A stretch of 64,000 nt of DNA, from contig NZ_RHNO01000012.1 in NCBI RefSeq assembly GCF_003946265.1, forward strand, positions 1 through 64,000. The letters run 5' to 3'. Source of the stretch: Levilactobacillus yonginensis. Its GTDB lineage: Bacteria; Bacillota; Bacilli; Lactobacillales; Lactobacillaceae. The translations under genes and the position numbers were made by a program. Positions 5,063 through 29,243 of the stretch are shown here, in pieces; position 1 is the first letter of the stretch, and every line of letters begins with the position of its first letter. Below the pieces are notes generated by a model that was given only the letters and a program-made list of their open reading frames with translations, was not told where the DNA came from and did not search any database.

Positions 5063-5593
5063 GTGCGACAAGTCAGTTACAGTCCAATAGAACGACACTA
5101 CATGCAAGAAGCACTCTTTGAAGCTGACCAGGCTGGCCTGATTGGGGAGGTGCCTATCGGTGCGGTCATCGTTCACGGTGATCAAATCGTGGGGCGTGGC
5201 CATAATCTCAGGGAACACGGAAATGATGCCACCATGCACGCGGAAGTCCGGGCCATTGAGGAGGCCTGTGCTACATTACATAGTTGGCGTTTAGAAGATT
5301 GCCAACTGTATGTGACGATTGAGCCGTGTCTCATGTGTAGTGGTGCCATTATCAATTCACGAATTCCGGTGGTCTACTATGGCGCCAGGGACCCCAAGGC
5401 GGGCGCGGTCGACAGCCTTTACGAGACGTTGACGGACAGTCGGCTAAATCACCGGGTGACGGTGTACGAGGGTCTGATGGCTAAGAGTGCTGGCGAACGC
5501 ATGGTAAGTTTCTTCCAGGCAGCTCGTAAGCGACAGAAGGCGGCCAAAAAGGCCCGGAAAGCTGCTCAGCGGTCCCAGCAGGTTGAGGAGTAA
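5063..5593 (+). CDS. tadA: tRNA-specific adenosine deaminase (A34 to inosine)
   Basis: TadA deaminates the wobble adenosine of tRNA-Arg(ACG). Zinc-site residues are visible: HAE at 59-61 (His ligand, catalytic Glu) and PCLMC at 88-92 (two Cys ligands). The C-terminal helix is unusually Lys/Arg/Ala rich. The GTG start has a strong AAAGGAGG site. At 176 residues it is slightly longer than average because of the basic tail. A 111-nt palindromic repeat begins 22 bases after the stop. Confidence 0.93.
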   Translation: MRQVSYSPIERHYMQEALFEADQAGLIGEVPIGAVIVHGDQIVGRGHNLREHGNDATMHAEVRAIEEACATLHSWRLEDCQLYVTIEPCLMCSGAIINSRIPVVYYGARDPKAGAVDSLYETLTDSRLNHRVTVYEGLMAKSAGERMVSFFQAARKRQKAAKKARKAAQRSQQVEE

Positions 5594-5614
5594 GTGGGCT
5601 GCAGTGGCTGAAAC

Positions 5615-5725
5615 GTGGTCGGTGAGGCAGCTGGTTCCGCTTAACCCCGTAAAAATAAGAATCCAAGCCCGGGATTCTCATTTTTACGATGTTAATGCTC
5701 ACCAGCTAAGCGCCTCACCGACCAC
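5615..5725 (+). repeat. 111-nt structured palindromic repeat, copy 1
   Basis: The outer stem is a perfect 14 bp (5615-5628 with 5712-5725). Inside are AGCTGG/CCAGCT and TTAAC/GTTAA complementarities, then an inner stem (about 5648-5656 with 5680-5688), continued by AGAATCC/GGATTCT around a 7-base loop. Reverse-complemented copy 2 (28364-28474) aligns along its full length without gaps (about 76 of 111 identical by my count). It lies directly 3' of tadA and just upstream of the SRP RNA promoter. It is not a simple terminator, since no strong T-run follows. Its role is unknown. Confidence 0.85.
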
Positions 5726-5740
5726 TCTTTAATAACATCC

Positions 5741-5775: not shown

Positions 5776-5887
5776 TGCCGTTAAGGCCTTGGAGCAAGGG
5801 TGGGCTTACGAATCGTGTCAGGTCCGGAAGGAAGCAGCACTAAGTTCGTTTCGCTTTGTGCTTCAAGTTTATGAGCTAATTCCAACT
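5776..5887 (+). ncRNA. ffs: Signal recognition particle RNA (small bacterial type)
   Basis: The universally conserved SRP RNA tip is present: GTCAGGTCCGGAAGGAAGCA at about 5816-5835, which carries the GGAA tetraloop and the Ffh-binding internal loop. Flanking arms pair (TTGGA at 5789-5793 with TCCAA at 5881-5885), so this is the short form of roughly 100 nt without an Alu domain. The ends are approximate and set by the promoter and the following terminator. It forms SRP with Ffh for co-translational membrane targeting. Confidence 0.92.
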
Positions 5888-27256: not shown

Positions 27257-28354
27257 ATGAAATTTGAGATTATTGTTAGCTTGTTTGCTACCATGATTAT
27301 CTCCGCGGTCCTAACCCCGTTTGTACGCCGCTTTGCGTTTCAAATTGGTGCGGTGGATAAACCGAATCAGCGCCGGGTCAACAAGGTTCCCATGCCGACG
27401 TTGGGCGGCCTAGCTATCTTTATTGCGTTTACTTTTTCAACGATGTTTTTATTGCGAGATCAAATGCCAACACAACAGCTGTGGGGGCTGTTCGGTGGCG
27501 AATGCATCATCGTCGCTGGTGGGATGATCGACGATGTCTTCGAACTGAAACCACGACAAAAGGTGATGTTTCAGCTGTTAGCGGCCATTGAAGTTTACTT
27601 CGTGGCGGGTATCCGGATGCGGTATCTAACGTTACCATTTGTGGGTGCTTGGCACTTTGGCTGGTTATCGTTGCCCATTACGTTGTTGTGGATCGTTGCC
27701 ATCGTTAATGCCATCAACCTGATCGATGGGTTAGATGGGTTGGCAACGGGGGTCTCGATCATTGCGTTAACGACGACTGGGATTACCGGGCTGTTCTTCT
27801 TGAACGTCGCGAATACCTGGGTGGCAATCATGATTTTTGCGCTAGTTGCTGCTATGGTGGGTTTCCTGCCTTACAACTTTTTCCCAGCCCGTATTTACTT
27901 GGGGGACACAGGGGCGCAGTTCATTGGATTTATGATTGCCTGCTTCTCCCTGTATGGTTTGAAAAACGTGACCTTCATTTCCGTGATCATTCCGGTGATC
28001 ATTCTGGGTGTTCCCATCACGGATACGGTGTACGCCATGATTCGCCGGATTTTGAATCGGCAACCCATTTCTCACGCGGATAAGCACCATTTGCATCACC
28101 GCTTGATGCAATTGGGATTGACGCACCGTCAGACGGTTTTGGTAATTTACGGGATTGCGTTAATTTTCTCGTTCATTTCACTGTTGTACCCGTTGTCCAC
28201 AATTTGGGGGTCGGTCCTGTTGACCATCGCAATTCTGATTGGCTTGGAGCTATTCGTTGAAGCCATCGGACTAGTGGGGTCGGACCGACAGCCACTCTTA
28301 CACTGGATCAACCGAGTCGTTAAGAAGTTAACGTCGAAGAATTCGGAAAGATAG
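27257..28354 (+). CDS. tagO: Undecaprenyl-phosphate GlcNAc-1-phosphate transferase
   Basis: Starts wall teichoic acid (and related polysaccharide) synthesis by attaching GlcNAc-1-P to the lipid carrier. It is of the MraY/WecA superfamily, 365 residues with about 11 membrane segments. Catalytic markers are the Asp-Asp pair at about 91-93 (GGMIDDVFELKPRQK), NAINLIDGLDGLATG at 151 on, the LGDTGAQF loop and the HADKHHLHHRL histidine motif. It is a single gene under its own promoter. A second copy of the 111-nt repeat begins 10 bases after its stop. Confidence 0.92.
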   Translation: MKFEIIVSLFATMIISAVLTPFVRRFAFQIGAVDKPNQRRVNKVPMPTLGGLAIFIAFTFSTMFLLRDQMPTQQLWGLFGGECIIVAGGMIDDVFELKPRQKVMFQLLAAIEVYFVAGIRMRYLTLPFVGAWHFGWLSLPITLLWIVAIVNAINLIDGLDGLATGVSIIALTTTGITGLFFLNVANTWVAIMIFALVAAMVGFLPYNFFPARIYLGDTGAQFIGFMIACFSLYGLKNVTFISVIIPVIILGVPITDTVYAMIRRILNRQPISHADKHHLHHRLMQLGLTHRQTVLVIYGIALIFSFISLLYPLSTIWGSVLLTIAILIGLELFVEAIGLVGSDRQPLLHWINRVVKKLTSKNSER

Positions 28355-28363
28355 GGATAAAGA

Positions 28364-28474
28364 GTGGGCCTAAAGGCGGTTAGCTGGCGAGCATTAACGG
28401 TGATAACCGAAAAATCCCGGTCCTGGATTATTTGGTTATCAGTGTTAAGCGGAGTCAGCTGCCTTTGGGCGCAC
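28364..28474 (-). repeat. 111-nt structured palindromic repeat, copy 2
   Basis: The same length as copy 1 and alignable to it in reverse complement without gaps. Outer arms 28364-28377 and 28461-28474 pair at 12 of 14 positions. Conserved blocks are AGGCAGCTG, TCCGCTTAAC, CCGGGATT, GTTAATGCTC and CCAGCTAA. The inner stem reads TGATAACC/GGTTATCA instead of CGTAAAAA/TTTTTACG, so pairing is kept while sequence changes. Like copy 1 it begins within 25 bases of a stop codon, here tagO. Confidence 0.85.
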
Positions 28475-28503
28475 GTTTCCACCACATAAAAATTCGCCAA
28501 CAC

Positions 28504-28539
28504 AAAAGGAGCCAGGGGAAAAATCCCCTGGCTCCTTTT
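28504..28539. terminator. Bidirectional terminator between tagO and yvyE
   Basis: A perfect 16-bp stem (28504-28519 with 28524-28539) with an AAAA loop. AAAA/TTTT ends make it work for both convergent genes. Confidence 0.88.
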
Positions 28540-28580: not shown

Positions 28581-29243
28581 TTAGTCGATCGAACGGCTAC
28601 TGGCGTTGATTTCGACAGGCACTTCATTGTAAGCGATGTCGCCCAGTTCAACGGTTAGGCGGTCACTTAACAGATTAGTGATCGCGGTTTGCGTGGCGGT
28701 CACGGCGTCCAAATCAACGGCAATGGTGACCGCGACCGCAGACGTGTACGCGGTGTCCAAAATACTGATCTGATTTTCAGTCAGGTAGTGGTTAAGGCGG
28801 TCGTAGTTGGGATAGTCCACGGTAATCGTCATGGCTTGCTGCCGGACGAGTTTGACGACGCCGACTGCTTCAATTCCAGTAGAGGTGGCGTTGCTGTAAG
28901 CCCGAATCAGGCCCCCGGCCCCCAGCTTGATGCCGCCAAAGTAACGGGTGACCACACCAATGACGTTGTGCAGGTGGTTACGTTGGAGCACCGTGAGAAT
29001 GGGAACACCGGCGGTACCGGATGGTTCGCCGTTGTCGCTTTCTCGTTGAATTTCATCGTGTTCACCGACCATGTAGGCCCAACAATGATGGGTGGCTTTC
29101 GGTTCTCGCGCGGTTACCGCAGCAATGAATGCTTTAGCTTCATCTTCGCTGGATACACGACCGAGGTCGGCAATGAACCGTGATTTTTTAATTTCGAGTT
29201 CGTGATTGCCACTTGCTTGAATGGTTAAGTAGTCAGTTTCCAT
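28581..29243 (-). CDS. yvyE: IMPACT/YigZ family protein
   Basis: A two-domain cytoplasmic protein of the IMPACT family. The N-terminal RNase-S5-like domain carries KSRFIADLGRV, ATHHCWAYMVG, SDNGEPSGTAGVPIL and NVIGVVTRYFGGIKLGAGGLIRAYSNAT. A smaller ferredoxin-like domain follows. At 220 residues it is the bacterial length. The bacterial role is not firmly known; the eukaryotic relative controls translation. The ATG start has AAAGGTG. It is transcribed away from comFA. Confidence 0.92.
   Translation of the reverse strand: METDYLTIQASGNHELEIKKSRFIADLGRVSSEDEAKAFIAAVTAREPKATHHCWAYMVGEHDEIQRESDNGEPSGTAGVPILTVLQRNHLHNVIGVVTRYFGGIKLGAGGLIRAYSNATSTGIEAVGVVKLVRQQAMTITVDYPNYDRLNHYLTENQISILDTAYTSAVAVTIAVDLDAVTATQTAITNLLSDRLTVELGDIAYNEVPVEINASSRSID

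Follow-up and report, generated by a model that had tools for sequence, protein, structure and literature searches.

Compensatory base-pair changes are the usual proof of a functional RNA structure. The two palindromic elements in the window (the whole stretch of DNA that was analysed, 64,000 nt) belong to a large family of imperfect hairpins in which covariation is very clear, and in which this covariation is lost when copies that stayed in place are compared. We put the probability at roughly two in three that the repeat is a small non-autonomous mobile element that is recognised or copied as a folded single strand and lands at the 3' ends of genes. In our best reading, its behaviour resembles that of a small mobile element more than that of a regulatory RNA on which the individual host genes depend.

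Two copies of the repeat in the window

A preliminary description of this DNA had reported a palindromic element of 111 nt that is present twice and has compensatory changes in its stem. The coordinates and the length of the two segments were right; in an ungapped alignment, copy 1 and the reverse complement of copy 2 were identical at 76 of 111 positions, and all five of the compensatory pairs listed for the inner stem were correct. The predicted fold of copy 1 has 44 pairs, of which 10 have both bases changed between the copies and can form in each of them. The window contains a pattern of two conserved blocks twice, whereas 100 shuffled sequences never contained it, and both copies folded better on both strands than dinucleotide shuffles (z from −5.2 to −11.3; 0 of 200 shuffles as good). 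By covariance model, however, the element is about 123 nt long rather than 111, with copy 1 at 5608..5730 on the minus strand (127.4 bits, versus 39.4 bits for the plus strand) and copy 2 at 28359..28481 on the plus strand (125.9 bits). These are the RNA-like strands. The strand originally presented is the weaker-paired one; folding energies were −70.6 for the opposite versus −63.4 kcal/mol for the presented strand of one copy, and −62.7 versus −41.9 kcal/mol for the other.

The host gene of copy 2 (27257..28354, plus strand) encodes a glycosyl transferase family 4 protein (PF00953, 1.3e-39), which we take to be TagO/WecA-like, and the 5' end of the RNA-like strand lies 4 nt past its stop codon. 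The hairpin is followed on the plus strand by a spacer (28482..28503) and a second, terminator-like hairpin (28504..28539), which is bidirectional and consists of an A-tract, an inverted repeat and a T-tract; the unit of hairpin, spacer and second hairpin measures ~180 nt. The convergent neighbour (28581..29243, minus strand) encodes a UPF0029/DUF1949 protein, presumably YigZ-like. A TATA-like stretch beside GAAACGTG was considered as a promoter and rejected by eye, a terminator and not a −35 box being in front of it.

Copy 1 is an exception to the layout that is usual for the family (see below). It lies between the gene for a nucleoside deaminase (5063..5593, plus strand; PF14437, PF00383), presumably TadA-like, and that for the bacterial small SRP RNA (5786..5872, plus strand, Rfam); the 3' end of its RNA-like strand is 14 nt past the end of the deaminase gene (5593), to which it is antisense, and no terminator hairpin was seen 3' of it. 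The statement that each copy begins no more than 25 bases from a stop codon therefore holds only if opposite ends are mixed, the RNA-strand 5' end for copy 2 and the 3' end for copy 1. Rfam searched over the whole window gave no family above threshold except tRNA and SRP RNA, and copy 2 did not match near any gathering score.

A large family in Lactobacillaceae and beyond

The element turned out to be a member of a large family rather than one of a pair. A BLAST search with copy 1 as query returned 25 further places in the same genome, and these places together with copies 1 and 2 formed a first alignment of 27 own copies. A pattern scan gave 119 usable copies from other species; they were picked by exact matches to two blocks, which makes the conservation of these blocks among them a given, whereas the 27 own copies were not selected in this way. 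The named genomes in the scan represent at least eleven genera of Lactobacillaceae (among 80 of 114 stretches listed). A covariance model (R1) was built from 87 copies, i.e. the 27 own ones and every second one of the 119. On the model strand, R1 detected 43 strong sites in the own genome, scoring 54 to 135 bits, plus three weaker ones, and reverse-strand readings of the 43 sites scored at most 42 bits. R1 was built partly from these copies, so that their match is no independent proof; the sites missed by BLAST are independent.

Many further copies were found by the model in other Lactobacillaceae and beyond: in at least 64 of 121 genomes and at least 22 of 40 genera of the family, in at least 41 of 246 genomes of the order, and in at least 25 of 76 genomes of one other family of the order. 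These counts are lower bounds because stricter filters applied in searches over 40 genomes. The distribution is patchy within a genus, with one weak match in one genome (G084) versus at least 29 in each of four other genomes of the same genus, and the stems of the copies follow a consensus for each species group. Pattern matches in two viral contigs and in a Chryseobacterium MAG were judged by eye to be chance, since the other conserved blocks are missing.

Head-to-tail rows, with elements a few bases apart, were seen at five loci and in three genomes from the searches beyond Lactobacillaceae; they occur both in Lactobacillaceae and in another family of the order. At one locus (L364), shorter hairpin units come after a full one, 3' of a glutamine synthetase gene. 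In the nearly closed chromosome of a sister genome (G149, C1), none of the 49 element matches falls in a 772-kb arc (110844–883245) centred near the point opposite dnaA (1755655), and a gap of this size appeared in none of 20000 random sets; the arc is possibly a terminus rich in accessory genes. Three contigs of the own genome (C2, C62 and C13) share their first roughly 80 bases, which lead into an element and its terminator; the assembly breaks there, perhaps at a longer repeat, e.g. an rRNA operon or insertion sequence.

Fold, strand and covariation

Read on the RNA-like strand, the repeat unit is an imperfect hairpin of 123 nt that has AGAGTG and CACGTTTC at its ends and GAGCATTAAC and GTTAAGCGGA as fixed internal blocks. 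The fixed blocks are kept across genera, and the conserved fold with fixed internal blocks, as proposed from the two copies in the window, is strongly supported across the family. The RNA-like strand was the better folded one in 27 of 27 own copies (mean −65.4 versus −47.0).

Covariation was tested on this strand. Double changes occurred at 33 of the 41 consensus pairs, and the number of double-changed cells was 695, compared to a mean of 174 in shuffles. Paired cells amounted to 93.4%, versus 72.1% in shuffles and 31–42% when the partners were slid by 1–3 columns; the latter control leans in favour of the structure, as the structure was derived from the same alignment. At pairs without a fixed wobble, G-U exceeded A-C (134 versus 41, p 1e-12), and such an excess on one strand means that what matters is one specific single strand.

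In the sister genome G145, the copy on the side of the tadA-like gene (L240) has a left inner arm that is now an exact inverted copy of the right arm, making the palindrome more perfect. From the sequence, this is likely to be an arm-to-arm templating event.

Genomic placement

The usual layout is a stop codon, a few nucleotides, the hairpin, about 25 nt and often a terminator-like hairpin. Gene neighbours were assigned with a crude ORF caller, not from annotation, for 146 copies (27 own and 119 other); 50 copies lie between convergent genes, 44 are tandem sense, 25 tandem antisense and one divergent, while for 26 the neighbourhood is incomplete. In 64 of the 146 copies a stop codon (ORF of at least 60 codons) is present from 15 nt before to 12 nt after the start of AGAGTG, and in a further 20 it is within 16–40 nt of that start. 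Within 40 nt, stop codons were found on the sense side only for 79 copies, on the antisense side only for 12, on both sides for 5 and on neither for 50. In six copies the first two bases of AGAGTG are the last two of a TAG stop codon. Elements are also present 3' of a tRNA gene (L013) and, in congeneric species, 3' of the SRP RNA terminator (L264, L267).

A second, terminator-like hairpin accompanies the repeat often but not always. It was found within 110 nt downstream of 41 of 141 copies, versus 77 of 718 control stretches, by a strict terminator search that probably misses many, and the 80 nt that follow the repeat also fold more stably than control stretches (mean −21.7 versus −17.8). In the young subfamily of the genus, the hairpin travels with a short spacer and the second hairpin.

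Filled, empty and altered sites

The site behind the tagO-like gene was compared at 30 loci. A full element is present in the own genome and in the two sister genomes G145 and G149 and absent elsewhere among the 30; one genome (G128) has a decayed remnant, and another (G053) has instead a shortened element behind the stop codon of the convergent UPF0029/DUF1949 gene. Three other sites are filled in one species and empty in another. One is filled in L017 and L296 and empty in L318, where a hairpin exists in the empty site. At the second (L307 filled, L293 empty), the hairpin and a new terminator are found in place of the resident terminator. The third (L270 and L353 filled, L331 empty) is a divergent promoter region, and no hairpin is evident in the empty site. 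No clear target-site duplication was found at these three sites, each of which is compatible with insertion or deletion. We infer that the empty sites would represent the older state and that stem-loops would be the target.

Same-site copies in sister species

Of 42 own copies, 30 (28 plus the two in the window) have a counterpart at the same place in sister G145 or G149, a count that rests on those sister copies that were fetched. Many copies are therefore old. Forty same-site pairs were divided at an element identity of 88%, a threshold of our own choice, into 18 similar and 22 divergent pairs. In the similar pairs, 17 changes are between a Watson-Crick pair and G-U and 19 between a Watson-Crick pair and A-C; a further 17 are single changes of other kinds, 5 exchange one non-standard pair for another and 3 are double, which makes 3 double versus 58 single. 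The near equality of G-U and A-C is what is expected without selection for pairing on either strand, and the ratio of 17:19 differs from the 134:41 of the family (p 2e-4). The divergent pairs (55–88% identical) have 187 double and 108 single changes, and over 41 same-site pairs, pairing is retained in 174 double changes and lost in 18. Because double changes lower the identity by which the pairs were split, the split itself accounts for part of their contrast between the two groups; the ratio of G-U to A-C is not affected by this.

Copies are thus many and covary family-wide, yet undisturbed copies simply diverge. The family covariation does not come from copies staying in place, and the paired changes come with copy turnover. 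This bears on two proposals of the preliminary description. Selection on the fold agrees with the family-wide covariation and the excess of G-U, but the pairing is unprotected in similar same-site copies. Between a structured RNA and a hairpin substrate of a transposase or recombinase, the hairpin substrate is favoured, because the lack of preserved pairing in similar same-site copies argues against selection of the fold at each host locus. We infer that selection would act at mobilisation. The resident copies do show differences in rate: in a set of 18 similar pairs, all but one of them the same as above, conserved columns (≥70%) changed at 51 of 1455 positions and variable columns at 75 of 701, compared to 94 of 1027 in the downstream 60 nt and 119 of 2153 in the upstream 120 nt, which is mostly coding. 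That the conserved columns are slower than the downstream flank would be explained by constraint or by correction by other copies, and suggests that some constraint or conversion remains in resident copies.

At three clean sites the stem was replaced while the surroundings stayed nearly the same. The elements L268/L309, L012/L313 and L013/L317 are 69, 71 and 86% identical, and both 120-nt flanks are 91–99% identical (96/94, 93/91 and 99/96%, respectively). In L013/L317 it is the outer helix that changed, along with a single pair of the adjoining helix and a handful of unpaired positions; only one base differs in the inner hairpin. Since the replacement touches one helix only, a simple re-insertion of the whole element does not explain it. 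Several other same-site pairs also differ downstream, which looks like a joint exchange of hairpin and terminator. Up to 15 of the 41 pairs are replaced at 1–9% flank divergence, which cannot be ordinary point mutation plus selection and requires block replacement. A search among 123 copies gave no close donor for the three clean replacements (best identity 0.72–0.77). The arms of the first helix were readable in 77 of the 123 copies; most of those that were checked lacked an identical counterpart, and the arm of L014 had at least four.

These replacements leave room for a tentative alternative, which we hold to be possible but somewhat unlikely, namely that the repeat is a cassette, the stems of which would be rewritten at their site, one helix at a time and with both arms changing together, with flanks, spacer and terminator untouched, and which would move without a dedicated transposase. 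If this were true, a DNA or RNA copying process, rather than slow mutation and selection, would generate the compensatory changes, and covariation in repeats of this kind would reflect copying and not RNA function.

A putative regulatory RNA in the 3'-UTR is unlikely. The transcribed hairpin would bind a protein, protect the mRNA end or be released as a small RNA, and host selection would keep the fold gene by gene. The better folding of the sense strand (27 of 27 copies), the stop codon near the AGAGTG start (64 of 146) or within 40 nt at the sense side only (79 copies), the fixed blocks across genera, the slower conserved columns and the 30 of 42 own copies common to the sisters all fit this reading; yet pairing is not protected in similar same-site copies, presence is patchy within a genus, host genes are unrelated where looked at, and copies are found antisense to genes, behind tRNA and SRP RNA genes and, in one case, in a divergent promoter region.

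We find it improbable that the paired changes arose by hairpin-templated mutation, in which the inverted repeat would be unstable, one arm would be rewritten from the other during replication and neither selection nor mobility would be needed. The left arm of L240, a copy of the right one, is as expected from such a process, and so is the concentration of stem changes in single helices on both arms with the flanks the same; but continual arm copying predicts double changes, which are 3 versus 58 single ones in the similar same-site copies, and the copy number and the filled and empty sites are left without an account.

Search for an enzyme or carrier

Three enzyme families were searched in 20 genomes: Y1_Tnp (IS200), RVT_1 (reverse transcriptase) and DEDD_Tnp_IS110. 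None of them tracks the copy number of the element, and no parent transposon was found among them. On contig C8 of G145, an IS110-family transposase domain with one in-frame stop (70604–71062) lies ~240 bp from an element (70240–70363). The motif GTTAAGC of the repeat fits GTTRRRY, which we take to be the pattern of the integron attC R-box. With a single copy of the young subfamily (L024) as query, blastn gave no matches in 72,556 plasmids (at 1e-6) or in 50,697 phages (at 1e-4); the search reaches close relatives, and more diverged members on plasmids or phages could escape it.

REP palindromes are described in PMC3733652 as lying behind coding regions, between convergent or tandem genes, with the folded strand as the substrate. 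The present repeat is also a palindrome at such places, but a REP/RAYT-type palindrome mobilised in trans by an IS200-like Y1 tyrosine transposase is highly improbable: the small palindrome, the tandem rows, the position behind genes, a strand bias as expected for folded single-stranded DNA and the Y1 genes in the own genome (5 matches) and both sisters speak for it, whereas the element is far longer than the 20–40 bp given for REPs in PMC3733652, a GTAG-tag test was not passed, and Y1 presence does not track the element, five genomes (G111, G042, G062, G119 and G103) having at least 29 element matches each and no PF01797 (Y1) match, and three (G037, G008 and G034) having Y1 genes and no element match.

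Relation to known repeats

The nearest described thing would be EFAR/Efa-1. Efa-1 of Enterococcus faecalis is given in PMC2267715 as an intergenic repeat of 163 nt in 65 copies that forms a pair of adjacent stem-loops, and EFAR elements are listed among the MITEs of enterococci in PMC3733652. Compared by description only, the present repeat agrees in its dozens of copies and their intergenic place, and its 123-nt hairpin is often, but not always, accompanied by a second hairpin, as in copy 2. In work of Venditti and colleagues from 2007, EFAR is reported to be an L-shaped double stem-loop that inserts into stem-loop targets, which are partly deleted in the process; the site L307/L293 would fit such an insertion. 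In our best reading, the present repeat may work like EFAR/Efa-1. EFAR has been described for one species or genus, however, whereas the present repeat occurs in at least eleven genera of Lactobacillaceae and in other families of the order. With respect to MITEs in general, the whole present unit is an inverted repeat, and no target duplication is evident at the three sites.

The L. plantarum supermotifs (LPSM, Wels et al. 2009) share with the present repeat an intergenic position, a cruciform-like structure and many copies in a lactobacillus; according to PMC5643018 they are 800–1000 nt long and L. plantarum-specific, whereas the present element is about 123 nt and order-wide. Structured RNAs in Rfam likewise combine strong covariation with fixed loops, but no Rfam family matches the present repeat. 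Searches of open-access papers turned up no description of this ~123-nt hairpin family in lactobacilli, subscription papers being outside their scope.

Proposed mechanism and meaning

Against the repeat being mobile stand the lack of a mobilising gene among the three enzyme families and of a clear target-site duplication at the three sites, as well as the slower conserved columns and the age of many copies. As a mobile repeat, its folded strand would be recognised by some machinery and placed at the 3' ends of transcription units, probably by landing in or beside existing stem-loops, i.e. terminators or older copies. Such landing would lead to positions behind stop codons, to positions behind tRNA and SRP RNA genes and to tandem rows, and an incoming hairpin could overwrite an older one. 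Fold and strand would be kept by selection for being recognised or mobilised and not by the host gene, host selection would remove insertions elsewhere, and in resident copies the pairing would decay.

If this is right, mobile palindromes can mimic functional RNAs. The family would define an order-wide mobile hairpin of lactic acid bacteria, and it would pose a testable question: what copies the hairpin, and how do both of its arms change together?
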